Shown here piece by piece: positions 2-13,470 of a DNA stretch of 34,785 nucleotides (position 1 is its first letter; every line of letters begins with the position of its first letter). Made by a program: the position numbers and the translations under genes. Below the pieces are notes generated by a model, which was given only the letters and a program-made list of their open reading frames with translations, was not told the origin of the DNA and did no database searches. This stretch comes from a virus: positions 1-34,785 of IMG/VR virus record IMGVR_UViG_3300034198_005970. The stretch is one strand, 5' to 3'.

Positions 2-634
2 ATTTTTAACAGTTATCCTGGAAAATATGTTGCAGGATCCAGCAGTATCTATTTGACACAATCTGACAATACCGAAGTGATAGGAACCGTTGCCATTGAT
101 CCATTGGATACCAGTATACTGCGTGTTAACTGGAACCCAGACACGCTGGTAAGCAATACTGGAATTGACAGCACAGGCAAGTTAGACAACATGACGGGAT
201 ACAATGCTGTTGGTAGTAATCGTCCCAACAGTCCCGGAACATTTGATGCTATTATTAATCCATTAACTTATGATCCATTACGTCCAACAGGCACTGAACA
301 AACTGATCAAACTATCAAATTAGGATTAAGATTTTTACTGGTTGAAGACATTGGCTCCGTTGATAACCTTAAAAACACTCAGTGGACCGGTACACCTGGC
401 ACTGCCGCTACAAATTACAGCATAGTATGGGGTACATTGGTAGCAAAAACAAACGACATTGTAGAATGGGATGGGGCCAAGTGGAATGTTGTGTTTAATT
501 CTAGTCAGTTTCATGACACTATGGTGTGGCAAACAAATACATACACTAGTGCTCAGTACATGTGGAATGGTGTCTCGTGGAACAAGAGCTTTGAGGGTAC
601 GTATGACGCTGGATCATGGAGAATAGTCTTGTAA
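2..634 (+). CDS. Virion structural protein, C-terminal part (5' end cut by window edge)
   Basis: The frame is open to the left edge of the window, so this is the last ~210 residues of a longer protein. A TTG codon at 53 could be read as a start, but nothing upstream of it looks like a ribosome site and the reading frame continues past it. The tail contains WDGAKWNVVFNSS and ends with YMWNGVSWNKSFEGTYDAGS followed by WRIVL. From memory, this aromatic, beta-rich ending resembles the C-termini of large structural proteins in T4-like cyanophages; I could not run a comparison. The last 19 bases overlap the Nudix gene, so the two are probably co-transcribed and translationally coupled. Which virion part it belongs to cannot be told from this fragment. 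Confidence 0.6.
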   Translation: MFNSYPGKYVAGSSSIYLTQSDNTEVIGTVAIDPLDTSILRVNWNPDTLVSNTGIDSTGKLDNMTGYNAVGSNRPNSPGTFDAIINPLTYDPLRPTGTEQTDQTIKLGLRFLLVEDIGSVDNLKNTQWTGTPGTAATNYSIVWGTLVAKTNDIVEWDGAKWNVVFNSSQFHDTMVWQTNTYTSAQYMWNGVSWNKSFEGTYDAGSWRIVL

Positions 635-1065
635 CGGATAGGATAGTATGTAGCGGAGCATTGTTCTACGCCAAATCTACACGACGTTTCTTGTTATTAC
701 AAAAGGCCAGCGGCAAGCATGAAGGCACTTGGGGCCTAGTTGGTGGTACCAATGTTGTTGGCGAAACTCCATGGCAGGGTCTACAGCGCGAAATTACGGA
801 AGAAATTGGTAGTATACCCGACATAATCAAAACAATTCCCTTAGAAACATTCGTGTCTAATGACAAGGTGTTTAATTTTCATACCTACCTGTGTGTAATA
901 GACACGGAATTTGTGCCGATACTTAGCGACGAACATCAAGGCTGGTCGTGGGCAACTGTAGACCGTGCACCGAAACCCTTACATCAAGGACTACGCAATA
1001 GCTTTAGTTCAAAGACAATACGCACAAAATTGCAAACAATATTTGATCTAGTGGAGTTGATATAA
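616..1065 (+). CDS. Nudix hydrolase
   Basis: This 149-aa protein carries a complete Nudix box, G-x5-E-x7-R-E-U-x-E-E-x-G-U, at residues 44-66: G44, E50, R58, E59, E62, E63 and G65 are all present. The family hydrolyses nucleoside diphosphates linked to another moiety (dNTPs, ADP-ribose, NADH, capped RNA and others) using Mg2+ bound by the REUxEE glutamates. The size is normal for a single-domain cytoplasmic Nudix enzyme. Substrate cannot be told from the box alone. T4-like phages often carry Nudix enzymes thought to clean up nucleotide pools or act on nucleotide-linked compounds. The start lies inside the end of the upstream structural gene, and the stop shares one base with the next ATG (TAATG at 1063-1067), so it sits in one operon with the oxygenase genes. 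Confidence 0.9.
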   Translation: MENSLVTDRIVCSGALFYAKSTRRFLLLQKASGKHEGTWGLVGGTNVVGETPWQGLQREITEEIGSIPDIIKTIPLETFVSNDKVFNFHTYLCVIDTEFVPILSDEHQGWSWATVDRAPKPLHQGLRNSFSSKTIRTKLQTIFDLVELI

Positions 1066-1718
1066 TGATCAATTATATTATACCGACAACTGTTGTCGAT
1101 AGTTTTCTTGACGATCCTGACTGGATTAGAAATTTTGGTCTTAAGCAAGAATTTGCAGTTGATCCGATTAATCAATGGCCTGGAAAAAGAACTAAAGACA
1201 TTGCTGAACTAAATCCAGCGTTGTTTGGTCATATTATTAATAAATTTTTTTCGATATTTTACGACCACGAGGAAACTCAAGTAAGATGGAAGGCAAGTGC
1301 ATATTTTCATATGATTGATGAATCATATGAAACAGGATGGGTTCACCGAGACCAAGGTAGACTTATCACAGGAGTTGTATATCTCAATGAAAGCGATGAC
1401 TCTGGAACTAGTGTGTATGAGCCAATTAGCCCGGGGTTACAATTAACTAACGCCGCAATCTTAAATGTGTCGTTTAAGGATCCCGAAGAAAATACACCAT
1501 TGTTAAAAAAATACAGAGATGATAGTAACAGTCAATTCAAAGAATCAATTGTAGTTAAAAATAAATTTAACAGATTGATTGCATTTGACTCTCATCTACA
1601 TCACGCCGCGAATAACTTTTTTGGAACTGATGCGTCAAGTAGACTTACTTTAGTATTTTTTATATCTAAATTGGATGTAAACGCTTTTCCTCTGCAACGA
1701 GTGCGGAGAACTATATGA
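1065..1718 (+). CDS. 2OG-Fe(II) oxygenase-like protein (DUF6445-like)
   Basis: This is a 217-aa protein. Residues 92-107 read WVHRDQGRLITGVVYL, giving an H94-x-D96 metal-binding pair followed by the usual hydrophobic strand, then GTSVYEP. Near the C-terminus, residues 171-199 contain FDSHLHHAANN and SSRLTLVFF, supplying the distal histidine (H179 or H180) and the arginine (R193) that normally holds the 2-oxoglutarate carboxylate. The layout matches small double-stranded beta-helix dioxygenases, and the H-x-D...GT...F pattern is closest to what I recall of DUF6445. Such enzymes couple 2OG decarboxylation to hydroxylation; the substrate is unknown. It overlaps the Nudix stop by one base and is followed by a 19-base gap holding an AAGGA ribosome site for the next gene. 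Confidence 0.7.
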   Translation: MINYIIPTTVVDSFLDDPDWIRNFGLKQEFAVDPINQWPGKRTKDIAELNPALFGHIINKFFSIFYDHEETQVRWKASAYFHMIDESYETGWVHRDQGRLITGVVYLNESDDSGTSVYEPISPGLQLTNAAILNVSFKDPEENTPLLKKYRDDSNSQFKESIVVKNKFNRLIAFDSHLHHAANNFFGTDASSRLTLVFFISKLDVNAFPLQRVRRTI

Positions 1719-1737
1719 AAATTAAAAGGAAAATATA

Positions 1738-2358
1738 ATGGAATCTTATATAGATAATATTTACACTACCCCAATTTATGTTGCCGAGATCACAGAACAA
1801 GAAGGGCTGAGTGTTATTCAAGAAGAAGCTAAACTTGCTATAGAAGCATCGGAATTTAGCGCCAAGCCATCATGGGGTGCAACACATTATCTTTCTAGTA
1901 CTACCTTTATGGACGATGTTATTTCAAAACATAATATGAAAATATTCCCCATTATCCTGAATGCGCACTTGCAACAATATATGGATATAATTGGGTTTGG
2001 AATGCGAGATTATATGGTAACTAGTTGGTTTAGTTTATTTCAAAAAGGACAATACGGTCATCTACATAATCACGGAAATGCAGATGTTAGCGGATGTTAT
2101 TATGTAGAAACTTCCGGGGCAGACGGAAACATTTATTTCGAAGATCCTCGTCCTGGTAACGAAACAAACTATGCGTTTGCTGGAAGATACATGTCAGGAA
2201 GAAGAAATTACGAACCTAAAGTTGGAAGAATGTTGATGTTCCCTGGATATTTGTATCACGGAATAAAAACTAATACTACAGATGTAGATCGAGTTAGTCT
2301 AAGTTTTAACATTAAATTTATAGATCCTAGATGTGAGTTGAAAAAGGGCAATGCTTAA
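1738..2358 (+). CDS. 2OG-Fe(II) oxygenase, PF13759/TIGR02466 type
   Basis: This is a 206-aa protein with the signature of the 2OG-FeII_Oxy_5 group: GHLHNHGNADVSGCYYV at residues 107-123. H110 and H112 align with the HxH pair of this family, next to the SG-x-YYV strand. The distal part, residues 163-192, has GRMLMFPGYLYHG (H174) and DRVSLSFNI (R185), as expected for the second metal ligand and the 2OG-binding arginine. The family is common in marine phages and bacteria but its substrates are not established. The start is supported by an AAGGA site about nine bases upstream. The end overlaps the SGNH-like gene by eight bases. Three further members of the same type lie at 3660, 4259 and 9540. 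Confidence 0.8.
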   Translation: MESYIDNIYTTPIYVAEITEQEGLSVIQEEAKLAIEASEFSAKPSWGATHYLSSTTFMDDVISKHNMKIFPIILNAHLQQYMDIIGFGMRDYMVTSWFSLFQKGQYGHLHNHGNADVSGCYYVETSGADGNIYFEDPRPGNETNYAFAGRYMSGRRNYEPKVGRMLMFPGYLYHGIKTNTTDVDRVSLSFNIKFIDPRCELKKGNA

Positions 2359-3034
2359 AAAAATAGGCATATTTGGAGATAGTTTTGCTGATCCAACATG
2401 GAATAATAATGACTACCTGGCATGGCCTGAGTTGTTAGAGACTGATTTTTCAGTTACTAATTTTTCTAAGAATGGGTCGAGCCTGTGGTATTCTTATCAA
2501 AAATTAAAAAAGCATATTGCAGATTTTGATGTTTGTATATTTGTTGCTACAGTATATGGCAGATTTTATCTAGAAAATTTAGATATTCATCTAAATATTA
2601 ACCGTAACACATGGCCCGTAAAACATAACATAAATTTAGGAAAACTTTATTACGAAGAATTTTTTTCAATGGATCGAGAAAAAGCATTCCACGATTTTAT
2701 GATAAAAGATATTGTAAATTTAGATAATGTTATTTTTATACCAGCATTTGAAGAATGTGCTAACAACAGAGAAATTACATTGAATCATTTTTCAAATGCC
2801 GAGTTGCGTCATTACGGGGTATTTAAGTATCAAGGCCCGGATGATCGTAAGTGCCATCTTAGCATAGAAAACAACAAAGTGATACATAAAAAAATTGTCC
2901 ATGCAATTCACAATAATCTGAATAATATATCGTTGTCAATGGATGAGTTTGTAGCTCCGGTAGAACCTTTTAATTTTTATTTTAACAGGACTACCTTGTT
3001 AGAAAATTTTGTTAAGGGCTATGATCCTAAATAA
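2351..3034 (+). CDS. SGNH-hydrolase-like protein
   Basis: This 227-aa protein opens with KKIGIFGDSFAD; GDS at residues 9-11 matches block I of GDSL/SGNH hydrolases, with S11 as the nucleophile candidate. KNGSS at 40-44 matches the glycine-bearing block II, and DDRKCHLS at 164-171 resembles the C-terminal Asp/His block V, with H169 as the candidate base, though the spacing is D-x3-H rather than the usual D-x2-H. A clean GxND block III is not visible, so catalysis is not assured. SGNH enzymes are esterases, lipases or acyl-transfer enzymes acting on sugars, lipids or peptidoglycan acyl groups. Similar GDSFA-starting proteins occur in marine T4-like phages without known function. It overlaps the preceding oxygenase by eight bases and lies among oxygenases, which suggests a shared substrate class (inference). 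Confidence 0.65.
   Translation: MLKKIGIFGDSFADPTWNNNDYLAWPELLETDFSVTNFSKNGSSLWYSYQKLKKHIADFDVCIFVATVYGRFYLENLDIHLNINRNTWPVKHNINLGKLYYEEFFSMDREKAFHDFMIKDIVNLDNVIFIPAFEECANNREITLNHFSNAELRHYGVFKYQGPDDRKCHLSIENNKVIHKKIVHAIHNNLNNISLSMDEFVAPVEPFNFYFNRTTLLENFVKGYDPK
3027..3033 (+). promoter_or_regulatory. Weak late-promoter-like motif CTAAATA
   Basis: CTAAATA overlaps the stop region of the SGNH-like gene and lies about 28 bases before the ATG at 3061. It is one letter short of the TATAAATA-type late octamer. The spacing would leave a leader of about 20 bases containing AGAGG. It could simply be coding sequence, so this is offered as a candidate only. Confidence 0.25.
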
Positions 3035-3060
3035 GTAATAAATGCGTATAGAGGTATAAA

Positions 3061-3663
3061 ATGACTGTTCAAATTATAGAAAATTTACTGCCCGTGTTCT
3101 GGCAACAAGGATTGCAAAATACTGTAGTAGATTTACAATGGATACATCAAAAAGGTACCTCGTATAAAGTTGAAGAATCTACATTTATCCAAGGTATGGA
3201 TATTTTCATAGACGAAAATACAGTAGATAGTCCTCAGTTTGTATCTTATATAATAGATTCTAAACAAACAAACCCAATTTTTCCTTATATTAGACCTATA
3301 TTATATATGGTTGAGGAACAGTTAGGAAAGAAAATTACCCGTATCATTAGAATAAAAATTAATCATCAACTTCCAATAGTAGGTTTTACTAGTAATAATT
3401 ATAATATTCCCCATATAGACGAACCTGATAGAAATTTAACGTCTGCCATATATTATATCAACAATAGTGATGGTGATACTTTTATCTTTAATGAACATTA
3501 TAGTCCTAATAAAGATGTTGATAAACTAACAGTAGCACATAGAATAACTCCAGAAGCTGGAAAAATTGTTGTTTTCCCATCGACGCAGATGCACGCCAGC
3601 TCTAATCCTATTAATACTCCTTCTAGGTACGTAATTAATTTTGTATTTGAGGTAGAGAAATGA
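3061..3663 (+). CDS. 2OG-Fe(II) oxygenase, prolyl-4-hydroxylase-like
   Basis: This is a 200-aa protein with IPHIDEPDRNLTSAIYYIN at residues 116-134. H118-x-D120 is the canonical metal pair, followed by the strand that leads to the 2OG pocket. The distal half has GKIVVFPSTQMHASS at 167-181, with H178 as third ligand, and SRYVINFVF at 188-196, with R189 as the 2OG-binding residue. The arrangement fits the P4H-like branch of the superfamily, different from the HxH group nearby. Such enzymes hydroxylate protein side chains or small molecules; the target here is unknown. The start has an AGAGG site seven bases upstream. Its stop overlaps the next start as ATGA at 3660-3663, so translation is coupled. 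Confidence 0.8.
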   Translation: MTVQIIENLLPVFWQQGLQNTVVDLQWIHQKGTSYKVEESTFIQGMDIFIDENTVDSPQFVSYIIDSKQTNPIFPYIRPILYMVEEQLGKKITRIIRIKINHQLPIVGFTSNNYNIPHIDEPDRNLTSAIYYINNSDGDTFIFNEHYSPNKDVDKLTVAHRITPEAGKIVVFPSTQMHASSNPINTPSRYVINFVFEVEK

Positions 3664-4262
3664 ATATTGATAAATGGTTTCCAACTGTAGTTAGTTGCAT
3701 AGATGATAATTTAATAGAAGAATTAAATCGCTATCGAGAATATTGCGAAGAATTTACTAACGACATTCCTACTAATCGACCATTTACAGGATCCCAGCTG
3801 ACTAGTACATTTAACCAATCGCTTCCGCAGTATGATCGCCCTATAGAGAATGATATTAGATTTAAAGAATTGTTTGATTTAATTTTAGAAAAAGGAACAA
3901 TGTTTGCAGAATTTCTAGGTTACAAATATGACTTAAGAATATCTCATGCATGGATTAATAAGATAGAAGCACATGATTATCACGAATTACATAATCATGC
4001 CTTGGGCGGCGATGCATTAATCTCTGGAGTATTCTATATTTCAGCTCCTGATTCTGCCGTTATTAGATTTAAAGATGCTATGGATTCATACAGTCCAGTA
4101 CCACCGACTGCGTATACTCCGTATAATAACAAACACGCACGATATGCTTGCGTACCTGGAAGATTATTATTATTTAGATCAGATGTGTTACATGGATACG
4201 ATTCTCATAACTCTGATGAAATAAAATTTAGTATTGCTTTTGATTTATCGGTGAAAAAATGA
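3660..4262 (+). CDS. 2OG-Fe(II) oxygenase, PF13759/TIGR02466 type, with Lys at the usual 2OG-Arg site
   Basis: This 200-aa protein has YHELHNHALGGDALISGVFY at residues 107-126, with H111 and H113 in the HxH position and the SGVFYI strand that marks this group. GRLLLFRSDVLHGY at 167-180 supplies the distal H178. The residue that in its neighbours is an arginine (R185, R191 and R178 in the 1738, 4259 and 9540 genes) is a lysine here, in SDEIKFSIAFDL (K189). Some 2OG enzymes use lysine to hold the 2OG carboxylate, so it may still be active, but this is a visible difference. It overlaps both neighbours by four bases (ATGA), forming a coupled three-gene run with 3061 and 4259. Confidence 0.75.
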   Translation: MNIDKWFPTVVSCIDDNLIEELNRYREYCEEFTNDIPTNRPFTGSQLTSTFNQSLPQYDRPIENDIRFKELFDLILEKGTMFAEFLGYKYDLRISHAWINKIEAHDYHELHNHALGGDALISGVFYISAPDSAVIRFKDAMDSYSPVPPTAYTPYNNKHARYACVPGRLLLFRSDVLHGYDSHNSDEIKFSIAFDLSVKK

Positions 4263-4891
4263 ACGATCCAAAATTTATTAAACCATTCGGCCCTTGCATT
4301 TATAGTAACTTAATTGCAGATGATATTTTGATTACTTTAAAAAACTGTAAAAAATTATCAGAAAATGAAAATGAAAATGTGGGTCATTTGTTAGCAGGAG
4401 CCTTGGAAAAACAATTAAGATTAATTGACACTCCTGAGCAACACCAAGCAATTTCGGATCATATTTTTGAACATTTAGGCATGTACATGGCTGAAAGCCC
4501 TGACACTCTTAAAGAAAAATTTACGTTTGACACCGATGATATATGGTTGAATATTCAACAAGCAGGCGAGTTTAACCCAGCACATCATCACTCTGGTGAA
4601 ATCTCCGGTGTAATATACTTGGAAATACCTGATGAGATTTTAGAAGAAAACCGAAAAAGTATAGATACAGCCGGTGTAGGATTTCATAGCTATGGGCAAA
4701 TCAGCTTTTATTACGGGGAAGACATATCTTGCCCAACATATTTTCATATGATGCCACGGCCAGGACAAATTATACTGTTTCCAGCCAAGTTAAAACATGC
4801 GGTGAATCCGTTCTTTAGCAAAGTAGAAAGGGTATCCGTGGCGTTTAATATCATTGAAAAATCCAAAGCCAAAACTAAAAATAACAAATAA
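4259..4891 (+). CDS. 2OG-Fe(II) oxygenase, PF13759/TIGR02466 type
   Basis: This is a 210-aa protein. EFNPAHHHSGEISGVIYLEI at residues 104-123 contains three consecutive histidines (H109-H111) where relatives have HxH, then the SGVIYL strand. GQIILFPAKLKHAVNPF at 169-185 gives the distal H180, and KVERVSVAFNI gives R191. Between the two motifs lies a longer loop (about residues 125-165) than in its paralogues, ending in a tyrosine/methionine-rich stretch. The C-terminus is lysine-rich and probably disordered. The function is inferred only as an Fe(II)/2OG-dependent oxygenase with unknown substrate. Its ATG overlaps the previous stop. It ends the first coupled gene block, since a late promoter follows immediately. 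Confidence 0.75.
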   Translation: MNDPKFIKPFGPCIYSNLIADDILITLKNCKKLSENENENVGHLLAGALEKQLRLIDTPEQHQAISDHIFEHLGMYMAESPDTLKEKFTFDTDDIWLNIQQAGEFNPAHHHSGEISGVIYLEIPDEILEENRKSIDTAGVGFHSYGQISFYYGEDISCPTYFHMMPRPGQIILFPAKLKHAVNPFFSKVERVSVAFNIIEKSKAKTKNNK

Positions 4892-4898
4892 ACATAGT

Positions 4899-4906
4899 TA
4901 TAAATA
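4899..4906 (+). promoter_or_regulatory. T4-type late promoter (TATAAATA)
   Basis: This is an exact copy of the T4 late-promoter octamer, lying in a short gap between two genes. In T4 this element occupies about -13 to -6, which would place the transcript start near 4912. That leaves a 16-base leader for an ATG at 4928, containing GGGA. The position, strand and spacing all fit a real late promoter driving the 4928 oxygenase, the unrecognised genes and the halogenases. Confidence 0.75.
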
Positions 4907-4917
4907 TCTAAACAAAT

Positions 4918-4921
4918 GGGA
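4918..4921 (+). promoter_or_regulatory. Ribosome binding site that decides the 4928 start
   Basis: GGGA lies six bases before the ATG at 4928. The alternative ATG at 4916 has no such site, and would fall only about four bases after the predicted transcript start, so 4928 is preferred. Confidence 0.5.
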
Positions 4922-4927
4922 ACAAAT

Positions 4928-5722
4928 ATGGATAACGAATTACTACCAACTTCTGGACAAGACTCTGCGATTGTTGAAAAAAACAAACGACCTTTAGAAA
5001 TAATCTACTTGGACAATGTTGCAAGACCCGATACGTTTGCTAACGTATTAGGCGATGTTGACAAACCAGGTTGGTTGTTTGGACGCTCTACAGATCCTAC
5101 AAAGCATGAAGAAACTGATTCAGTTTTTTGGACTCAGAACATGCAACGAAGCAGTTGGTGTACTGATGTACTATGGTACGAGATCTTGGCTAAACTAGAA
5201 GAAGTAGCTCCTGCTACTGCTAACTATCAATTTAAAGTTAAATCTGTAGACTGCGGCGGAAAAACTTTCGGGCAAGATGGCGGGATACATACCGATGTCG
5301 ATTTTCAGTACAATGAAGAAGGTGATGGCTGGATGACTGTTTGTTTTTTCCCTAATGCCGAATGGAATCCAGAATGGGGTGGAGAATTTCAGTTCTTCAA
5401 TGATGCCGGAGATGTTATAGCAACATATTATCCTAAACCTAACACATGTCTAGTATTTGATTCAAACATTCCTCACAGAGGGCTAGCACCATTACGAGGC
5501 TGTAATAAATTAAGAAAATGTTTGACTTATAAAACTTTTGTACATAAACAATGGTTCCTTGAAAACAACCCAGATGTTAAAATGATCGATGGTAGCATAG
5601 TACCGGGTCTAGTAAACACAACTCCACAACGAACCGACTTAGATAAAGTCGAGGATACCGGAGCAAAACCAAATTTTGCAGATGTTTCTACTGTTTCAAA
5701 GAAAAGAATAAAAAAAGATTAA
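4928..5722 (+). CDS. 2OG-Fe(II) oxygenase, prolyl-4-hydroxylase-like
   Basis: This is a 264-aa protein from the chosen ATG (268 aa from the upstream ATG at 4916). GGIHTDVDFQ at about residues 118-127 gives H121-x-D123. It is followed by WMTVCFFPNAEWNPEWGGEF, typical of P4H-like enzymes, where a WGGEF strand follows the metal pair. LVFDSNIPHRGLAPLRG at about 175-191 supplies the distal H183, and R190 or R196 is the candidate 2OG-binding arginine. The last ~55 residues are charged and probably flexible. The superfamily hydroxylates proline, lysine or small molecules; P4H-like genes are known in T4-like cyanophages beside structural genes. It is the first gene after the late promoter, so expression late in infection is likely. 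Confidence 0.85.
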   Translation: MDNELLPTSGQDSAIVEKNKRPLEIIYLDNVARPDTFANVLGDVDKPGWLFGRSTDPTKHEETDSVFWTQNMQRSSWCTDVLWYEILAKLEEVAPATANYQFKVKSVDCGGKTFGQDGGIHTDVDFQYNEEGDGWMTVCFFPNAEWNPEWGGEFQFFNDAGDVIATYYPKPNTCLVFDSNIPHRGLAPLRGCNKLRKCLTYKTFVHKQWFLENNPDVKMIDGSIVPGLVNTTPQRTDLDKVEDTGAKPNFADVSTVSKKRIKKD

Positions 5723-5729
5723 AGATATC

Positions 5730-5951
5730 ATGCCTGAAAACACAGTTCCTCAAATAAGAAGATCGCATTTTCCAGATAGATTATTGTTAGTGCCTATTCA
5801 CATTCGAGATGAAAGGCTTGAAATATGTAAGCCTTGCCCTAATAATAAAGACTTGCATTGTACTACTAATGCTAAACCTATATATGCTACTGCAACGAAA
5901 AGAAGCGGTTCTTGCCCAATGGGTTTTTGGTCGACCTATTATGGCAGTTAA
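5730..5951 (+). CDS. Small four-cysteine, probably zinc-binding protein
   Basis: This 73-aa protein has cysteines at 33, 36, 44 and 62: ICKPCPNNKDLHC followed by GSCPMGFW. The order C-x2-C ... C ... CP-x3-W recalls small phage proteins with the pattern C-x2-C ... C-x2-CGC ... CP-x4-W. The second cysteine pair of that pattern is reduced to one here, so a single four-cysteine metal site is plausible. No function is assigned to this group. It starts seven bases after the P4H-like gene and its end overlaps the next start at 5941 by 11 bases. A different frame across the same bases is also open (see rejected items); the cysteine pattern favours this frame. Confidence 0.6.
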   Translation: MPENTVPQIRRSHFPDRLLLVPIHIRDERLEICKPCPNNKDLHCTTNAKPIYATATKRSGSCPMGFWSTYYGS

Positions 5952-6669
5952 AGTAGGATGGTGTCCATGGGGAGAACGTGGTCCCCATACTGATCAGTCT
6001 TCTGCCGTATACTGGGGTCAAGCTGAGATATTATCAATCACTCCTAAAAAATTAGACACTTGGGATAAAAGTCTTTCTGGTTTTACTAAATGTCCTGCGT
6101 TCAATACATACGTAGCAAACACCTACATGGTGTGTTCAAACATAGATATAGAGCTAACATGGGACATTGAACATAAAAGATTAACTAGCAATCTGCCTCC
6201 TATGGCACATGATACATTTGTGCATTTACATTACCAAGATTTTGTACCCGATGTAGATCCGCCGATTGTATCGATGTTATCTAGTATGTTATTTGTAGCT
6301 GATCAGCCCGTAATGATAGAAATGACACCACCATATAACCATATTGATCCTGCATGGAGAACTATGCCCGGAGCGTTTAACATTTACAATTGGTTTAGGC
6401 CAGTCATTCCTAGCATAGAAATGTTACACAATAAGGTATCGATTAAACGTGGGCAACCTTTAATGTATATTAGATTCAGGACTGAAAATTTCAAAGATAA
6501 TGTTGTATTAGAAAGAGTTGAAAGAACCGATGAACTAGAACATTTAGTAAATTCTTGTTTGTCTGTTAAAAATTATCAACCTTCACTCAGCTGGAAGATT
6601 TCTAATACGCTTAATCCAATGCGTCCTAAAAATTTATTAAAAAAATGTCCCTTTAAAAAATGGCTATAA
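5941..6669 (+). CDS. Unrecognised protein next to the halogenases
   Basis: This is a 242-aa protein from the ATG at 5941 (MAVKVGWCPWGERGP). The frame is open for 44 more residues upstream to 5809, but that extension lies on top of the four-cysteine gene and reads as an artificial hydrophobic stretch, so the inner start is preferred. Visible pieces are KCPAFNTYVANTYMV, MTPPYNHIDP, a central GAFNIYNWFRPVIPS and KRGQPLMYIRF, then a basic C-terminus. I do not recognise a family and see no H-x-D...H-R oxygenase set, signal peptide or membrane segment. Proteins of this general look occur in marine T4-like phages, from memory. It overlaps the first halogenase-like gene by 10 bases, which suggests it works with that enzyme or shares its substrate (inference). 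Confidence 0.65.
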   Translation: MAVKVGWCPWGERGPHTDQSSAVYWGQAEILSITPKKLDTWDKSLSGFTKCPAFNTYVANTYMVCSNIDIELTWDIEHKRLTSNLPPMAHDTFVHLHYQDFVPDVDPPIVSMLSSMLFVADQPVMIEMTPPYNHIDPAWRTMPGAFNIYNWFRPVIPSIEMLHNKVSIKRGQPLMYIRFRTENFKDNVVLERVERTDELEHLVNSCLSVKNYQPSLSWKISNTLNPMRPKNLLKKCPFKKWL

Positions 6670-7886
6670 ACGTACAAGATTTAGCTCGACCAAAAAACAT
6701 CGTAGTAGTCGGTGCCGGAACAGCAGGTATCCAGGGTGTATGCCATTATCTTTCATATCTTGGAAGTCACGGGTGGACTGTTACACTGATACATTCTCCT
6801 AAAATTAATATACTAGGTATAGGAGAAAGCACTAATCCACCATTTGTTGAATCGTTGGAAGACGGTGCAAACTTTAATATACTCGATGACATGCCCGAAT
6901 TAGACGCTACATTTAAGTTCGGAACACATTATGTAAACTGGAGAGATAACCCGTTTACTATTCCAGTATTAACAGGGCATGCCGCATTGCATGTTAACAC
7001 TTTTAAGTTAAAAGAATTTGCATTGCCTCGAATTAAATCAATTTGGGGCGATAAATTTCAAATTATCGAAGGTACAGTATCCAGCATAGAAAACATGGGA
7101 GATTCGGTAAGTGTTATTGTCGACGATAAAGAATATACATTTGATTATGCTGTTGATAACAGAGGATTTCCAGCGTTGTTTGACGACTATCATGTTATCA
7201 AAGATAACCCAGTTAATCATTGTCTAGTACATAACACAAAAGATACAGCATCGTGGAATGCAACATTGCATCAGGCAACACCTGATGGATGGATGTTTGG
7301 TGTACCGCTGACATCAAGAACCAGTTATGGTTATCTGTTTAATAATACTATCACATCTCCTGACCAAGCAAAAATTAATTTTAGCAAAGAGATTGGTGTC
7401 GATCTGCAGGATCTCGATAACATCGAATATAAATTCAAATCTTATTATGCTGATAAGGTGTTAGATGGCAGAATTCTTAAAAATGGTAACAGAGCTGTGT
7501 TTTTTGAACCAATGTTTGCTAACAGTCTATGGTTGTATAAAAATAGTGATAAACTATTTGTTAGCTATATGAGAGGCATTCTGAGAGAAGATCAGTTGAA
7601 CGGCATATTTACAAGTATGGCAAAAGATGTCGAAGAACTAATCTGCTTTTTTTATCATGGCGGTAGTGTGCATGATACAGATTTTTGGAGGAAAGTCAAA
7701 CCGTATGCCGAGGAAAAACTTAAACAAAGTAGAACATTTAAGATCATGAAAAATATCATGACACGACAGTACAGACTTAAACAATTTGATCCTACTATCA
7801 ACGAGTACAGTTGGGTGTTCAGTGAAAAACACATGTTTACTATAGATGAAAAATTAGGTTACAATTATTTCAAAAAAAATGAATAG
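6660..7886 (+). CDS. Flavin-dependent halogenase-like protein, divergent (catalytic Glu not conserved)
   Basis: This is a 408-aa protein, shorter than typical tryptophan halogenases (about 500-540 aa). VVVGAGTAG at residues 15-23 is the FAD-binding GxGxxG, and GIGESTNPPF at 53-62 is the halogenase GxGExT region. ATFKFGTHYVNW at 83-94 places K86 where the essential lysine (K79 of PrnA) lies in ASYK-type sequences. The WxWxIP signature is altered to GWMFGVPL (W211, F213). The EPLES motif is replaced by FFEPMFANS (282-288), so the catalytic glutamate (E346 of PrnA) is a phenylalanine, F286. It is therefore clearly related to FAD-dependent halogenases, but whether it halogenates is open; an oxygenase-like or altered halogenase role is possible. 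It overlaps the preceding gene by 10 bases. No flavin reductase is present in the window. Confidence 0.75.
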   Translation: MAINVQDLARPKNIVVVGAGTAGIQGVCHYLSYLGSHGWTVTLIHSPKINILGIGESTNPPFVESLEDGANFNILDDMPELDATFKFGTHYVNWRDNPFTIPVLTGHAALHVNTFKLKEFALPRIKSIWGDKFQIIEGTVSSIENMGDSVSVIVDDKEYTFDYAVDNRGFPALFDDYHVIKDNPVNHCLVHNTKDTASWNATLHQATPDGWMFGVPLTSRTSYGYLFNNTITSPDQAKINFSKEIGVDLQDLDNIEYKFKSYYADKVLDGRILKNGNRAVFFEPMFANSLWLYKNSDKLFVSYMRGILREDQLNGIFTSMAKDVEELICFFYHGGSVHDTDFWRKVKPYAEEKLKQSRTFKIMKNIMTRQYRLKQFDPTINEYSWVFSEKHMFTIDEKLGYNYFKKNE

Positions 7887-7960
7887 CCGTTAACTCAGAA
7901 TACAGCATACCGTCAATTATATTCATTAAATAATAGAATAGCTAAATGTAGAGGAAAAAT
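7887..7960 (+). other. 74-base gap between the two halogenase-like genes
   Basis: This gap contains ATTAAATA at 7925-7932, which matches the last six bases of the late octamer, and the ribosome site AGAGGA. No hairpin followed by a T-run is visible. It may hold a weak promoter for the second halogenase. Confidence 0.3.
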
Positions 7961-9547
7961 ATGCCAAGTATAAACAAAATAGTAGTAGTCGGCGGCGGTA
8001 GTGCCGGATGGATGTCGGCTGCTACACTAAAACACCACCTACCTAACAAAGAAGTGTATGTAATTGAAAGCCCAAACATACCTACTGTTGGAGTAGGCGA
8101 AAGTACTATTGGTCAAATTAATACTTGGTTGCACGATTTAGATATTAAAGACGAAGAATGGATGCCGCATTGCGATGCCAGTTATAAATTAAGTATTAAA
8201 TTCACTGATTTTTATAAAGAAAATTCTGGAGGATTCCACTATCCATTCGGATTGCCGCATACTGAAGGTACTGTATTCGGGATCAACGACTGGTATTTCA
8301 AAAAAATGAAATTTCCAGAAACTCCAAATAGCGATTATGCTTATACATATTATCCTGCAACAATGCTTTCCGAAGCTAATAAAATTATTACGAATGAAAA
8401 TAATGAAATGCCCGCTTGGAGATTCGATAACGATACTGCATATCACTTCGACGCCGCCAAGTTTGGTATATGGTTACGAGATGTATATTGCAAGCCGCGT
8501 GGTGTAGTTCATATTCCTAGCGAAGTTGTTAGTGTACAGTCTAATGATGATGGTATAGAAACTTTAACTCTTACCGATGGCTCTACAATAACTGCGGATT
8601 TGTTTATAGATTGTACTGGATTTAAAGCAATGTTAATCGACAAAGAATTAAAAGTTCCTTTTATTCCGTATGATCATATGTTGCCTAACAATAGTGCATG
8701 GGCTACACGAGTGCCTTATCAGGATAAAGCTAAAGAATTACAGCCATATACAAACTGTACAGCAATTGAAAATGGCTGGGTTTGGAATATCCCGTTATGG
8801 AGCCGTACTGGCACTGGTTATGTTTACAGCGATAAGTTTGTAAGTGATGCAGATGCGTTAGAAGAATTTAAAAATTATCTACGCAGACGTGAACCAGTAG
8901 CTATACCCGAAGATGTAATCGATACATTAGAATTCAGAAATATTAAGATGCGCATTGGTATACATAAAGAAATTTATGTAAAAAATGTATGTGCTATTGG
9001 ACTGGCGGCTGGGTTTATTGAGCCATTAGAAAGTAACGGATTGTATACTGTACATGAATTTATTACTAAACTAGCAAAAACTCTACGCAGAGAAAGCATT
9101 AGCCAATGGGACAAAGATTGTTTTAATACTGTATGTCGTAGAGATTTTAAAATATTTGCAGAATTTGTATCCTTGCACTATGCATTAAGTCAGCGTAGTC
9201 AAACTGCATATTGGAAGGCTAACAATGATAGACAGTTTAGCCTTGCTATGGTAAACGATAATATTTCAAAATCTGGGTTTGAAGATTTAATGTTTGGACG
9301 AATGAATTCAAATACATATAATCTTGACTTAGGCGGCATACCTCCTATTGCTGCCGGTATGGGTTTCTTTCCATTAGACGAAAGTAGTGTAAAACGTAGT
9401 ATGTTTACTAATGGACATACAATGTTACTCGAGGTTGTAGATAAAACGCTAGACAAGTGGGATGCTCAACAAGCAATGTGGAAAGACATTGTGGATCGTG
9501 CTCCTACATTATTTGAATTTTTGAAAGAAAAATATTCCGATGTTTAG
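7961..9547 (+). CDS. Flavin-dependent tryptophan-halogenase-family protein
   Basis: This is a 528-aa protein, normal for the family. In order it shows VVVGGGSAGWMSA at residues 8-20 (FAD-binding GxGxxG), VGVGESTIGQ at 43-52, and DASYKLSIKF at 72-81 with K76 matching the catalytic lysine. Then come IDCTGF at 216-221, the diagnostic WVWNIP at 273-278, and AAGFIEPLESNG at 349-360 with E357 at the catalytic glutamate. All known requirements for an FADH2-dependent halogenase are visible. These enzymes form HOCl/HOBr/HOI at the flavin and pass it to a lysine, halogenating indole or other electron-rich rings. A cyanophage enzyme of this type (VirX1) has been reported to halogenate a range of substrates. 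The start has AGAGGA six bases upstream. Its 3' end overlaps the next oxygenase by eight bases. A reductase must come from elsewhere. Confidence 0.88.
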   Translation: MPSINKIVVVGGGSAGWMSAATLKHHLPNKEVYVIESPNIPTVGVGESTIGQINTWLHDLDIKDEEWMPHCDASYKLSIKFTDFYKENSGGFHYPFGLPHTEGTVFGINDWYFKKMKFPETPNSDYAYTYYPATMLSEANKIITNENNEMPAWRFDNDTAYHFDAAKFGIWLRDVYCKPRGVVHIPSEVVSVQSNDDGIETLTLTDGSTITADLFIDCTGFKAMLIDKELKVPFIPYDHMLPNNSAWATRVPYQDKAKELQPYTNCTAIENGWVWNIPLWSRTGTGYVYSDKFVSDADALEEFKNYLRRREPVAIPEDVIDTLEFRNIKMRIGIHKEIYVKNVCAIGLAAGFIEPLESNGLYTVHEFITKLAKTLRRESISQWDKDCFNTVCRRDFKIFAEFVSLHYALSQRSQTAYWKANNDRQFSLAMVNDNISKSGFEDLMFGRMNSNTYNLDLGGIPPIAAGMGFFPLDESSVKRSMFTNGHTMLLEVVDKTLDKWDAQQAMWKDIVDRAPTLFEFLKEKYSDV

Positions 9548-10106
9548 ACAATTATTGAGAGAAGCACATTGGAGTGACTTTAATCTATACAAAGATGAAA
9601 TTATAAAATATTGTTTAGATAACGAAAAACCCAATGTAGTTGAATCTAATGTTGCAACCCAATATAAACATAACTTGTGGGAAAGCAAATTTAATTTTCT
9701 TGAAACTGATAACTCAGCTATTATTAAACTAAAAGTGTGGTTGAATTTAGCTGGGGCTGAAATTATACAAGAGCTAAATCAAAAAAATTACAATTTTATT
9801 ATTACTGAATGTTGGGCACATGTTACCAACACGGGTGGATATCACTTACCACATTCTCATGGACAAAGTACTTGGTCCGGCATAATTTATATCGACGGCG
9901 ATGATACTGCTGGCGGAAAAACGCATTGGTATCCTCCAATACATCTTGAAAAGAAACCAGGTTTGGATTTTTTAGCTGAAGATTATTATATTAATCCCAA
10001 ACCTGGGTTGATGGTAATGTTTCCAAGTGCATTAGTTCATTATGTTGAACCATACACCGGAACTACTCCAAGAATTACAATCGCATTTAATGCGTTTTGT
10101 ATTTAA
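9540..10106 (+). CDS. 2OG-Fe(II) oxygenase, PF13759/TIGR02466 type
   Basis: This is a 188-aa protein and the last plus-strand gene. YHLPHSHGQSTWSGIIYI at residues 101-118 gives H105/H107 and the SG-x-x-YI strand. GLMVMFPSALVHYVEPY at 156-172 gives the distal H167, and TPRITIAFNAF at 176-186 gives R178. This is a compact, complete example of the group. The start lies eight bases inside the end of the halogenase gene, so the two are translationally coupled, which suggests that they act on the same pathway or are needed in similar amounts (inference). The stop codon TAA ends at 10106, and the minus-strand gene begins its stop at 10107, so there is no room for a terminator outside coding sequence. 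Confidence 0.8.
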   Translation: MFRQLLREAHWSDFNLYKDEIIKYCLDNEKPNVVESNVATQYKHNLWESKFNFLETDNSAIIKLKVWLNLAGAEIIQELNQKNYNFIITECWAHVTNTGGYHLPHSHGQSTWSGIIYIDGDDTAGGKTHWYPPIHLEKKPGLDFLAEDYYINPKPGLMVMFPSALVHYVEPYTGTTPRITIAFNAFCI

Positions 10107-10583
10107 TTATTGACCGTTAACAATATCTGCGCCAGATGAATGTGGTGCCGCTTGATTGTAGCCAGGGCCTGGATTTGTAGGCACAACAACTGTTGGTTTA
10201 ACAGCATCAGTTTGTGGAGTTAATACTGTTGGTTTTGGAATTGCGGCTTTAACTGCTGTAATATGACTAGCCCAAGGCCCAGTAGGACTAAGTGTACCTG
10301 TAGTCATTAATTCTCTGTAAATCATATCCATCTGTTCGCCACCGCTAGCATAACCTCGCATACGTTGCATATAGAAAGGTTCTACAGTATTGCCAAATGC
10401 ATCTCTATTGGCTGCATGTGGGTCTTCAAAAGTACCATCTTCTAGCAATAAAAAGTAACTTTCTGTATTATCGGGACAATCAGTCCAGTATAGCCCAGCG
10501 TGAACTTCAAATTGGTCCGCTTCAGTTGCTACAACTTGTACAACACGGTTGGTGTTATTTTCTATGAGTGCTCGTTTTGTCAT
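10107..10583 (-). CDS. Tail-fibre-associated protein (XkdW-like region)
   Basis: This is a 158-aa protein. The N-terminal half, residues 1-45, contains NRVVQVV, HAGLYWTDCPDN and a strand-rich core. Residues 72-118 read YMQRMRGYASGGEQMDMIYR then ITAVKAAIPKP, which resembles the R-x-x-x-Y-P-S-x-x-E-Q-L-D-M-x-Y ... I-x-x-V-K-x-x-x-P-K-P pattern of small proteins (XkdW and relatives) encoded beside phage tail fibres. The C-terminal ~40 residues are rich in Pro, Thr and Val and likely disordered. The role in such phages is not settled; fibre assembly or fibre capping is possible. It is the last gene of the minus-strand fibre operon, 20 bases after the third glycine-rich fibre gene, and its stop codon abuts that of the convergent oxygenase gene. 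Confidence 0.55.
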   Translation of the reverse strand: MTKRALIENNTNRVVQVVATEADQFEVHAGLYWTDCPDNTESYFLLLEDGTFEDPHAANRDAFGNTVEPFYMQRMRGYASGGEQMDMIYRELMTTGTLSPTGPWASHITAVKAAIPKPTVLTPQTDAVKPTVVVPTNPGPGYNQAAPHSSGADIVNGQ

Positions 10584-10603: not shown

Positions 10604-11581
10604 TTATCTATATTCATAAACTATGCAGATACCGCCTTGCCCCGCTGTACCGCCTTGCCCGTTACTAGATGCAGGCACACATGCGCCGCCGCCACCCCAG
10701 CCGCCAACGTTTGTACCCGGTCTGCTACTATGGAATGTTGACATACCGTTACCAAAATATCCAGCTCCTCCTGCACAATCATATGCACTTGAGCCATTAG
10801 ACTGATCGTTGTTAGTATGCCCGCCGTTTGTTCCACCTTTGCTAGCTACACTTCCGCCGTATCCGTATCCGCCGTGACCGCTAGCATGACCATAATTAGC
10901 ATCTGCTCCGTATCCGCCACTTGCCGACATTAATCCGCCAAAACTAGTTGTACCGCCAGCACCAATATTTGCATAGTAGGCGGCTCCGCCTGATCCGCCA
11001 CCCACTGTTACTGATTGACTAGTTCCAACTTGAGCGGCTGTAAATACACCTTCTGCATATCCGCCGGCACCACCACCAATATTATAACTTGTGCCGCCAC
11101 CGCCACCACCTACACAAATAACGTGTATCTGGTTTACATCGGTTCCACTTCTAGTATATGTTCCATTACTAGTGAAAGTATAGATATTTTTCAAACGACC
11201 TTTTAATGTATTATCGTGATAAGTTTTTGCGGCGTTTTGTGTAACCGCATAACTGTTAGTAGCACTATTAACATAGTTTGCATTGTTCATTGAAGTATCA
11301 TTTGATACTTGTGAAATTGTGCCGCTACCAATAGTCAAACTACTAGTTTTTACAGTACTAGCAGTAGTAGTTCCAAGGTTAGTAATAGTAGCAGTGCCAC
11401 CAGTAATTGTTACGTTGTTAGCATCCTGATTACCTAAACTTTGTACTACTAGTACGGGAGTATTACTAGCATTTCCAATCCACATCTTATTATCAGGAAT
11501 GTTAATAGCTACTTCTCCTTGCTGTAAACTAGCAGGAACGCTACCTGGAGTATTTGAATTTTTAAATTGATATCTTGGCAT
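10604..11581 (-). CDS. Glycine-rich tail fibre / adhesin, copy 3 in transcription order
   Basis: This is a 325-aa protein. Residues 13-46 hold the fibre N-terminal pattern LQQGEVAINIPDNKMWIGNA. Residues 50-130 are Ser/Thr/Asn-rich with an AVTQNAAKTY linker motif (112-121). IYTFTSNGTYTRSG starts the C-terminal domain, which from residue 158 is strongly glycine-rich with aromatic and histidine spacing and ends GGICIVYEYR. The Gly-rich part resembles Gly_rich_2-type domains and, in style, the polyglycine receptor-binding tips known from T-even gp38-like adhesins. Two paralogues lie directly upstream and only one base separates the genes, with the order TAA-A-ATG at each junction. This copy is the most diverged in the glycine-rich loops. 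It has two Cys in the tip (AYDCAGG and GACVPASS) besides one in strand HVICVGG. Confidence 0.8.
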   Translation of the reverse strand: MPRYQFKNSNTPGSVPASLQQGEVAINIPDNKMWIGNASNTPVLVVQSLGNQDANNVTITGGTATITNLGTTTASTVKTSSLTIGSGTISQVSNDTSMNNANYVNSATNSYAVTQNAAKTYHDNTLKGRLKNIYTFTSNGTYTRSGTDVNQIHVICVGGGGGGTSYNIGGGAGGYAEGVFTAAQVGTSQSVTVGGGSGGAAYYANIGAGGTTSFGGLMSASGGYGADANYGHASGHGGYGYGGSVASKGGTNGGHTNNDQSNGSSAYDCAGGAGYFGNGMSTFHSSRPGTNVGGWGGGGACVPASSNGQGGTAGQGGICIVYEYR

Positions 11582-11582
11582 T

Positions 11583-12524
11583 TTATTTAAACTCGTAAAC
11601 TATTACAATACCGTTACGGCCGCCCCAACCATACGTTGTTGCATTACCGCCTGTTCCGCCTGATCCAAACGATGATGGAGGAGTTGCTTGCCAGCCAGCG
11701 TGATTACTAGGTTGGCCACCGCCAAAGAAACTTGCGCCGCCAACACCGCCACTGCCAGCACCGTTATTATATGCTGTTAAGTGACCGGTACCGCCACCGC
11801 CATGACTTGTAACTTGACCGCCGGATCCGTTACCGCCGTGTCCTCCACTATGAGCTTGATTATTGTTTGCACCATATCCGCCAGTAGCTGAGAGATAACC
11901 ACCAAAACTAGTAGTTCCGCCTTGGCCATAATTTCCATAATAGCCACCACCTGCGCCACCACCGCCTATAGTAATAGACACCGGAGTTGATAGGCTGGAT
12001 ATAAGAAAATTACCTTCTGCATAACCGCCGCCGCCGCCGCTTTCGTGATACCCAGCGGCTCCGCCGCCGCCGCCAACTAATACTACTTTAACACTTTGTA
12101 TTTGACTACTGCTAGGACTATAACTACTATTGCTAGTATAAGAATATACGTTAGCTAACACACTAGTACCATACGTATCTATATAAGTTTTAACTGCATT
12201 CTGCGTTGGTAACGCCGATGTACTAGTTCCCAAAGTAGACGAACTGTTATCAACACTTGTAAGTGCAGTACTTGAACCAATAGTAAGTGAAGTAGTATTT
12301 AGATTGGTTGCTGTTACTGTAGTATTATTAATTGTGCCACCGGTGATTGCTACACTGCTTGCCGTTTGATTTGCAAGTGTTCCAATTACTACTACAGGGT
12401 TTCCACTAGAGTTTCCTACATGCATACGAGGACTTTGTGTAGCATGGGCAAGTTCGCCTTGCAACAAAGTTCCGCTGGTCGGAGTTGTTGTTGTTGTTGA
12501 ATATTTTGTTTGAATTATTGGCAT
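11583..12524 (-). CDS. Glycine-rich tail fibre / adhesin, copy 2 in transcription order
   Basis: This is a 313-aa paralogue of the flanking genes. LLQGELAHATQSPRMHVGNS near the N-terminus matches the fibre head pattern. Residues 60-115 are low-complexity Thr/Asn-rich, and LPTQNAVKTYIDT (105-117) is the linker motif. The tip begins at about residue 122 with ANVYSYTSNSSYSPSS and from 151 becomes glycine-rich (GGGGGAAGYHESGGGGG), ending NGIVIVYEFK. The GQGGTTSFGGY segment is nearly identical, in protein and DNA, to the copy at 12526. Unlike both neighbours, it has no cysteine in the VVLVGGGG strand. The likely role is recognition of a host surface glycan or protein at the distal end of a tail fibre (inference from domain type). 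Confidence 0.8.
   Translation of the reverse strand: MPIIQTKYSTTTTTPTSGTLLQGELAHATQSPRMHVGNSSGNPVVVIGTLANQTASSVAITGGTINNTTVTATNLNTTSLTIGSSTALTSVDNSSSTLGTSTSALPTQNAVKTYIDTYGTSVLANVYSYTSNSSYSPSSSQIQSVKVVLVGGGGGAAGYHESGGGGGYAEGNFLISSLSTPVSITIGGGGAGGGYYGNYGQGGTTSFGGYLSATGGYGANNNQAHSGGHGGNGSGGQVTSHGGGGTGHLTAYNNGAGSGGVGGASFFGGGQPSNHAGWQATPPSSFGSGGTGGNATTYGWGGRNGIVIVYEFK
11902..11951. repeat. Near-identical 50-base segment shared by adhesin copies 1 and 2 (copy a)
   Basis: By eye this segment matches 12848-12897 at 48 of 50 positions. It encodes the GGGYYGNYGQGGTTSFGG part of the glycine-rich tip. A more diverged counterpart begins at 10938 in the third copy. It is a possible recombination site between paralogues. 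Confidence 0.7.
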
Positions 12525-12525
12525 T

Positions 12526-13470
12526 TTATTTGTACTCGTACACTATACATACACCACCCTGTCCGGTGACACCTGCACCGTGGGTACTTGCGCCGCCGGC
12601 ACCCAATGCGGCATTTGCGTAGTTCCATGGGTCGCTGTGTCCGTAGTGACCACTTTCAATCCCGCCGCCAAAGAAACTTGCTCCGCCGTGCCCGGTATTG
12701 TGGTTAGCACTTGAATATTCATTACGATGTCCACTGCCACCGCCTCCATATGCATTTATATTGCCGCCGTAGCCTAAACCACCATACCCACCACTGTGTG
12801 TCATGTTATTATTTGCGCCATAACCGCCGCTTGCTGATACATACCCGCCAAAACTAGTAGTTCCACCTTGACCATAATTTCCATAATAGCCACCACCACC
12901 GCCACCACTGCCGGATACTGTAACACTTACAGTGCTAATACCGCCGGCGGCAATTAGTAATTCTGCATAACCGCCTGCACCACCACTTTCGCCATAATGC
13001 TGGGCCGCGCCGCCGCCGGCTCCTACACAAATTACTCTAATATAGTTAACATCAGTTCCACTTTTTGTATATGTTCCACTACTAGTGAAAGTATACATAT
13101 TTTTAAGAGCACCTTTTTTACTGTTAACGTAAGTTGCTACTGCTAGCTGTGTAGGAGTTGAAGTTGTACTAGTTCCTAGTGCAGTATTAGTATCGATGTT
13201 TGTAATAGCAGGACTGCTACTGTTAATTTGTAAATTATTAGTAGTTAGTGCAGTAGGAGTTGAAGCACCGACAGCAGTATTGTTAACTGCTCCGCCAGTA
13301 ATAGATACGCCACTAGCTGATTGAGATGCCAAAGGAGTTTTAATTAGTACCGCAGTAGAACCATTACCGACCCATAGTTTGTCGTCGGCAATATTATAGG
13401 CCATTTCTCCAGTTGTTAGAGTTGGAGTATTTCCTGAGCTTGTACTAGTTTTAATCTTGATAATAGGCAT
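12526..13470 (-). CDS. Glycine-rich tail fibre / adhesin, copy 1 in transcription order
   Basis: This is a 314-aa protein, the first of three tandem paralogues. TLTTGEMAYNIADDKLWVGN at residues 17-36 is the fibre N-terminal repeat. TPTQLAVATYVNSKKG (105-120) is the linker. KNMYTFTSSGTYTKSG opens the tip, which is glycine-rich from about residue 150, has GGGGGGYYGNYGQGGTTSFG in the middle, and ends GGVCIVYEYK. It is the only copy of the three preceded by a clear ribosome site (AAGGA, seven bases before its ATG); the downstream two rely on TAA-A-ATG coupling. This suggests that all three are translated from one message in descending or coupled amounts (inference). Lengths of the three are 314, 313 and 325 aa. 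Confidence 0.8.
   Translation of the reverse strand: MPIIKIKTSTSSGNTPTLTTGEMAYNIADDKLWVGNGSTAVLIKTPLASQSASGVSITGGAVNNTAVGASTPTALTTNNLQINSSSPAITNIDTNTALGTSTTSTPTQLAVATYVNSKKGALKNMYTFTSSGTYTKSGTDVNYIRVICVGAGGGAAQHYGESGGAGGYAELLIAAGGISTVSVTVSGSGGGGGGYYGNYGQGGTTSFGGYVSASGGYGANNNMTHSGGYGGLGYGGNINAYGGGGSGHRNEYSSANHNTGHGGASFFGGGIESGHYGHSDPWNYANAALGAGGASTHGAGVTGQGGVCIVYEYK
12848..12897. repeat. Near-identical 50-base segment shared by adhesin copies 1 and 2 (copy b)
   Basis: This is the partner of 11902-11951. The two differences are G/A changes at the 18th and 24th bases. Confidence 0.7.

Follow-up and report, generated by a model that had tools for sequence, protein, structure and literature searches.

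An island of predicted Fe/2OG oxygenases and halogenase homologs beside the tail-tip genes of a T4-like marine phage: a possible system for tail-tip modification

The stretch of DNA analyzed here (the window) is the 34.8-kb IMG/VR virus contig IMGVR_UViG_3300034198_005970 (positions 1 to 34,785), which carries an island of enzyme genes, a plus-strand run at 1065-10106 that combines seven predicted Fe(II)/2-oxoglutarate (Fe/2OG) oxygenases with two homologs of flavin-dependent halogenases (FDHs). From left to right, the window holds the end of a gp15-like gene, a NUDIX gene, the enzyme run, and then tail genes that are convergent with the run: a phrog_1787 gene, three Gly-rich genes, and two giant fiber genes. 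The arrangement is known from cyanophages, though little discussed, and the island adds a large new member to it. The new part is its link to tail-tip genes, on which no statement was found in the literature searched (subscription papers, including those on syn9 and VirX1, lay outside the search).

The enzyme run and the adjoining tail genes

The window has no DNA-level match among annotated phages. Its nearest relative is a 47-kb IMG/VR contig (3300010885_023842, loci L010 and L101), in which the greater part of the island recurs in near-identical order at 58-85% amino acid identity; the island is therefore no assembly artifact. This contig differs in lacking the DUF6445 and SGNH genes, with a phrog_7084 gene in the place of the latter. 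On its left side are tail sheath-like, gp13-like, and gp15-like genes (gp15 by a Pfam match, the others from their translations), which, on predicted gene content, identify the window phage as a T4-like myovirus. The principal genes of the window are as follows.

1065-1718, plus strand: predicted Fe/2OG oxygenase, DUF6445 type (PF20043, E 4.6e-15; phrog_1644, E 1e-34; HRD...H, R)
1738-2358, plus strand: predicted Fe/2OG oxygenase, PF13759 type (E 6.7e-20; HNH...H, R)
3061-3663, plus strand: predicted Fe/2OG oxygenase, PF13640 type (E 3.1e-7; phrog_274; HID...H, R)
3660-4262, plus strand: predicted Fe/2OG oxygenase, PF13759 type (E 3.2e-12; HNH...H, K)
4259-4891, plus strand: predicted Fe/2OG oxygenase, PF13759 type (E 2.3e-19; HHH...H, R)
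4916-5722, plus strand: predicted Fe/2OG oxygenase, PF13640 type (E 8.8e-8; HTD...H, R)
6660-7886, plus strand: short FDH homolog without the signature residues (PF04820, E 2e-28; GAGTAGI, FKFGTHY, WMFGVP)
7961-9547, plus strand: VirX1-type FDH homolog, signature motifs intact (PF04820, E 7e-106; PDB 6qgm VirX1, E 5.6e-111)
9540-10106, plus strand: predicted Fe/2OG oxygenase, PF13759 type, last gene of the run (E 1e-19; HSH...H, R)
10107-10583, minus strand: phrog_1787 protein, conserved linker between the Gly-rich tip genes and the island (E 2e-14)
10604-11581, 11583-12524, and 12526-13470, minus strand: three tandem Gly-rich tail-fiber tip genes (phrog_863)
14408-26287 (3959 aa) and 26335-34743 (2802 aa), minus strand: two giant tail-fiber genes upstream of the tip genes (phrog_9851)

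All seven predicted oxygenases exceed the Pfam cut-off for one of PF13759, PF13640, and PF20043, and in all seven the metal-ligand motif is complete, as HxD...H in the proteins at 1065, 3061, and 4916 and as HxH...H in the four PF13759 proteins. The HxH pattern is also present in the solved PF13759 chain 3bvc, which together with 2rg4 is closest to these four; both chains are uncharacterized. The preliminary description of this DNA, made from the letters alone, read correctly both the seven oxygenases and their division into at least three subtypes (PF20043 at 1065; PF13759 at 1738, 3660, 4259, and 9540; PF13640 at 3061 and 4916), and the open reading frame (ORF) coordinates agree with its account of a run beside tail genes. 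The junctions are mostly overlapping or near-touching, and a single base separates the end of the oxygenase gene at 9540-10106 from the tail gene that converges on it. In the protein at 3660, Lys replaces the 2OG-binding Arg of the others, as it does in the relatives at L010 and L011. Pairwise identity among the seven is only 20-29%, and they are therefore products of old divergence and not recent duplicates; the oxygenase at 4916-5722 is 61-72% identical to its counterparts in L011 and L101, and the DUF6445-type gene at 1065-1718 has no counterpart in L101. The PHROGs label of phrog_1644 is "minor coat protein," and a PDB sequence search with the PF13640-type and DUF6445 proteins gave no useful match.

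The two halogenase homologs both match PF04820, as had been proposed, and only one of them keeps the signature motifs. The protein at 7961-9547 has all the FDH signatures (GxGxxG, catalytic Lys, and WxWxIP), in the form of GGGSAGW, YKLSIKF, and WVWNIP, with K80 at the position of PrnA K79. Its closest solved relative, with a full-length match, is VirX1 of cyanophage Syn10 (PDB 6QGM), the gene of which is about 39% identical; the two share GGGSxGW and WVWNIP, and VirX1 has YKNSIRF where the window protein has YKLSIKF. VirX1 is active, with K79 named as its lysine, and has a large open active site that accepts bulky substrates (PMC8407142). The protein at 6660-7886 keeps GAGTAGI. However, because its Lys79 column holds His and WMFGVP stands in place of WxWxIP, so that the second Trp is lost, it should not be named a halogenase on present evidence and may not halogenate. 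Since Arg occupies the aligned Lys79 column in VirX1-type proteins (syn9 gp42, for example) and VirX1 is nevertheless active, the missing Trp weighs more than the missing Lys. Proteins of the 6660 type are short (about 390-408 aa) and form a class whose members stand alone elsewhere in S-SSM5 and S-MS29.

On the tail side of the junction, all three Gly-rich genes match phrog_863, "tail fiber assembly" (E 1e-36 to 1e-37), and the one at 10604-11581 matches PF21722, Gly_rich_2 (E 6e-7); a PDB sequence search with the Gly-rich proteins gave no useful match. Lys and Arg are scarce in such Gly-rich tips. The giant fiber genes match phrog_9851, tail fiber protein, at E 1e-134 and 2e-114. Both giant proteins also carry five CBM_5_12 modules each (PF02839, E 2e-34 and 7e-36), which suggests polysaccharide binding.

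Recurrence of the island beside tail-tip genes

The window contains the combination by which the island is defined, a Gly_rich_2 tail gene and a phrog_1787 gene next to genes of the FDH and 2OG kinds. The same slot, with a tail fiber gene, a Gly-rich tip, phrog_1787, one or more halogenases, and oxygenases, is found in syn9, S-RIM44, S-CREM1, P-RSM6, P-TIM40, S-WAM1, S-SZBM1, Sf-FP1, and Sf-FR1, and Sf-CH11 has a similar arrangement with no phrog_1787 match. The island had been presented as exceptional against one or two oxygenases per T4-like cyanophage. That figure is too low, as we count 6-19 per genome among 16 complete halogenase-bearing genomes (published counts are 24 for S-SCSM1, ten for S-CREM1, and nine for S-SZBM1), and similar islands are common in cyanophages.

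Within these 16 genomes, 46 oxygenases lie no more than 8 kb from a Gly_rich_2 gene, compared with 18.6 expected (circular-shift P about 1e-4), and 47 lie within the same distance of a halogenase, compared with 20.6 expected by circular shift; the compared genomes are related, and the P values overstate their independence. Among 28 distinct VirX1-type loci from IMG/VR with enough flank, an oxygenase was present within 6 kb in 21, a Gly-rich ORF in 18, and either in 25, and at the IMG/VR VirX1-type loci 78 of 82 oxygenases are on the halogenase strand. Loci found with phrog_1787 contained a Gly-rich gene, a halogenase, and an oxygenase in 36 of 36 cases, a proportion that is biased by the query having been taken from halogenase loci, with 2.33 oxygenases per 10 kb. 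In 26 control loci at the clamp loader of T4-like cyanophages, Gly-rich genes and halogenases were absent and oxygenases numbered 0.72 per 10 kb.

Individual components of the island come and go, but those that are present remain by the Gly-rich gene. Strict coupling of phrog_1787 to a halogenase was rejected, as in S-B64 and in the unselected genome G025 phrog_1787 and oxygenases accompany a Gly-rich gene at a site that lacks a halogenase; S-SSM5 and S-MS29 likewise have oxygenases by a Gly-rich gene without a nearby halogenase. The converse, a halogenase by a Gly-rich gene without an oxygenase, occurs at L012, L014, and L020. At L020, L021, and L050 (13206-14334), where a halogenase adjoins Gly-rich genes and no oxygenase was detected, the Gly-rich protein has 16-18% Pro and is possibly collagen-like. 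In Sf-FP1, a second oxygenase run (45000-64000, L115) flanks a short tail fiber gene and a tail assembly chaperone gene, far from the halogenase island.

In syn9 (gp40-gp54, NC_008296), the slot holds Gly-rich tips, phrog_1787, two adjacent halogenases, and an Fe/2OG run that includes a DUF6445-type member, as well as a phrog_7084 gene and a JmjC_2 oxygenase. The two syn9 halogenases, unlike the window protein at 6660, have full length and keep WxWxxP, and Arg occupies their Lys79 column; no SGNH homolog was recognized in this island, and amino acid identity to the window is 23-39%. In syn9, tail genes and island share one direction, whereas they face each other in the window, L010, and L011; the position therefore survives inversion. 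In S-CREM1 (ORF67-ORF80, OP535465), a collagen-like/Gly-rich gene, phrog_1787, a halogenase, and eight annotated 2OG genes stand in line; it differs from the window in its single halogenase and in a JmjC protein.

A scan of bacterial genome contigs with the halogenase returned one locus, a contig of a Maricaulis metagenome-assembled genome (L148; NZMJ01000017.1, 1-13533), which is itself phage. Its Fe/2OG island is very dense, with Gly_rich_2 followed by six to seven Pfam-matched 2OG enzymes, further phrog_274-type ones, a JmjC_2 protein, and a TylF-type methyltransferase, and it also carries a phrog_7084 gene and a VirX1-type halogenase at 44% identity. The virion gene of L148 is phrog_3287, which is not T4-type. 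The island therefore appears, from these predicted genes, to be present outside T4-like cyanophages as well, again tied to a Gly-rich tail gene.

Comparison of gene order in related phages had been named as a check on the preliminary description, and the conserved synteny argues against unrelated insertions. A related possibility is that a recombination hot spot by the variable tail-fiber genes gathered oxygenases and halogenases with unrelated host or phage targets and no common pathway. Strong gene turnover, exemplified by L010/L101, where phrog_7084 is present and the DUF6445 and SGNH genes are not, is consistent with a hot spot, as are the low identity among the seven oxygenases and the oxygenases found elsewhere in the genomes. 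However, the cargo is narrow, consisting mainly of the Fe/2OG, JmjC_2, and FDH families and not of general morons, nearly all oxygenases follow the strand of the halogenase, and the combination is repeated in L148 with a different virion gene. We consider a hot spot of this kind unlikely.

Other genes of the run and its borders

The run as first listed was incomplete, the NUDIX gene, the 73-aa Cys protein gene, and the upstream gp15-like gene having been overlooked. The remaining features are the following.

2-634, plus strand: 3' part of a T4 gp15 (tail sheath stabilizer)-like gene, left island border (41% identity to L101:3746-5197)
616-1065, plus strand: NUDIX hydrolase, first gene of the run (PF00293, E 3.5e-15; L101 counterpart 76% identical)
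2351-3034, plus strand: SGNH-like putative esterase/acyl hydrolase (GDS, G-S, and CH motifs conserved with L016, L032, and L093 homologs)
5730-5951, plus strand: 73-aa Cys-rich protein (phrog_13558, E 0.005)
5941-6669, plus strand: phrog_17480 protein, predicted dUTPase/dCTP-deaminase-like barrel (phrog_17480, E 2e-15; AlphaFold2 pLDDT 72.5)

The L101 counterpart of the border gene (3746-5197) matches PF16724, T4-gp15_tss, at E 5e-24. At the convergent junction between island and tail genes, a terminator-like palindrome (10082-10094) has T-rich tails on both strands; the region overall is not enriched in such palindromes over shuffles, and a promoter scan gave results at chance level.

The SGNH-like assignment at 2351-3034, made in the preliminary description, is retained as putative. 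Its GDS, GSS, and CH motifs are conserved in four homologs, with no GxND block seen, and the protein has no Pfam match; its AlphaFold2 model (pLDDT 68.7) gave a weak Foldseek match, SGNH esterases being best at E about 0.01-0.03 and none below 1e-3. Homologs adjoin halogenases in L016, L032, and L093. The protein at 5941-6669, previously left unrecognized, belongs to phrog_17480, and its model matches the dUTPase 6ky8 in Foldseek (E 2.5e-4, TM 0.35 by query). Assignment as a dUTPase was rejected, as the match is to the fold only and the candidate motif-III stretch has Asn, compared with Asp in many homologs; the modeled protein is thus best described as a fold relative of dUTPases and not a dUTPase. 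The small protein at 5730-5951 has homologs with a CxxC...C...CPxGKW pattern that are mostly encoded directly upstream of phrog_17480 genes, and it probably binds metal. The two genes recur together, and loci found with phrog_17480 also contain a halogenase at L127, L134, L137, L139, L140, and L146. Single-protein searches of annotated phages returned no relatives of the Gly-rich, SGNH, or phrog_17480 proteins, and the PDB held no useful sequence match for the phrog_17480 protein.

Possible targets of the island enzymes

In T-even phages, receptor binding is the task of Gly-rich tip proteins (gp38), in which a polyglycine lattice carries loops (PMC12892980). From the position of the genes, we infer, with confidence that falls a little short of even, that the island enzymes hydroxylate and halogenate tail-tip proteins. 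The oxygenases would hydroxylate, and the VirX1-type halogenase would halogenate, residues of newly made tail-fiber tip proteins before assembly, with the neighboring Gly-rich PF21722 proteins as prime substrates; the 6660, SGNH-like, and phrog_17480 proteins may target, edit, or add further groups. Different enzyme sets would yield chemically different receptor-binding surfaces, with a presumed benefit for adsorption, and this would explain why single enzymes are gained and lost rapidly while their slot stays fixed. The preliminary description had offered virion proteins, the host surface, or a small molecule as targets, and gene order favors the first as the candidate. More tentatively, we propose that a portable island in marine phages of different kinds hydroxylates and halogenates, probably by bromination or iodination, the receptor-binding tail-tip proteins of those phages themselves.

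A small-molecule tailoring pathway had also been suggested, and the island might accordingly make or decorate a halogenated metabolite derived from amino acids or sugars that aids the infected host in competition, or it might alter capsular sugar. The SGNH-like gene could be counted in favor, as SGNH-like esterases often act on acylated sugars. The cluster of cyanophage S-SSM6a, in which a halogenase accompanies 2OG and cupin enzymes much as halogenase and 2OG genes do in the window, adds carbamoyltransferases, heptose genes, and nucleotide-sugar genes and has been interpreted as a system for making a halogenated metabolite or decorating the capsule (PMC7824862). Antibiotic protection has been suggested (PMC2984593, PMC9964418), and the S-CREM1 island genes have been ascribed in publications to antibiotic protection and host reprogramming. 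In S-SSM7 (92000-114000, L116), the tail-tip slot has carbamoyltransferases, heptose genes, a nucleotide-sugar epimerase, and a halogenase directly after the Gly-rich tail genes, hinting at tail or capsule glycosylation. That cluster itself, however, follows tail-tip slot genes, and the window island lacks glycosyltransferase, carbamoyltransferase, and heptose genes. Moreover, a PP-binding carrier protein (PF00550) is present in none of 18 phage records and only in the Maricaulis assembly, which speaks against a tailoring pathway, and a fixed link to tail-tip genes would be unexpected for one. A metabolite or capsule role is, in our view, improbable.

The oxygenases could instead act on host metabolism or host proteins, by 2-oxoglutarate drawdown, hydroxylation of ribosomal or photosystem proteins, or DNA repair. 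The JmjC_2 family includes protein hydroxylases and ribosomal oxygenases, and its members in the syn9 and S-CREM1 islands could be read in this sense. Cyanophages have been described with several 2OG oxygenases each, and Syn9 with two halogenase genes; roles in 2OG/nitrogen signaling or DNA repair were suggested (PMC3037559). However, the seven oxygenases of the window gave no match to the AlkB-type family PF13532, and the slot is away from the uvsY/uvsW genes that underlie the repair idea. For drawdown of 2-oxoglutarate, seven divergent enzymes, a halogenase, and a location next to tail genes would all be unnecessary, and a host role of this type is distinctly improbable. The JmjC_2 members detected by Pfam in the syn9, S-CREM1, and L148 islands, coming from a family that includes known protein hydroxylases, also fit modification of tail-tip proteins.

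Several points weigh against tail-tip modification, beginning with the relatedness of the genomes behind the P values. The unselected genome G024 breaks the pattern, and many oxygenases of the genomes compared are encoded at other sites. The literature searched reports no modified residue in any cyanophage virion. The Tyr, Trp, His, Phe, and Pro composition of Gly-rich domains with and without a halogenase gave no usable signal, and aromatic content showed no clear difference, with four negatives only. Gene position alone cannot separate a tail protein, the host surface, and a small molecule as targets, and the carbamoyltransferases and heptose genes in the related S-SSM7 slot point to sugars.

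The literature searched states no native substrate either for the cyanophage Fe/2OG oxygenases, of which there are up to two dozen, or for VirX1, a viral halogenase that has been produced and crystallized. The link to Gly-rich tips names a candidate substrate, testable on the cultured isolates syn9, Syn10, and S-CREM1. If tail-tip modification is true, then the host-binding surface of these phages would be diversified by enzymatic modification and not by mutation alone. This would constitute a new viral way to vary a receptor-binding surface, and the genes concerned would leave the list of "auxiliary metabolic genes."

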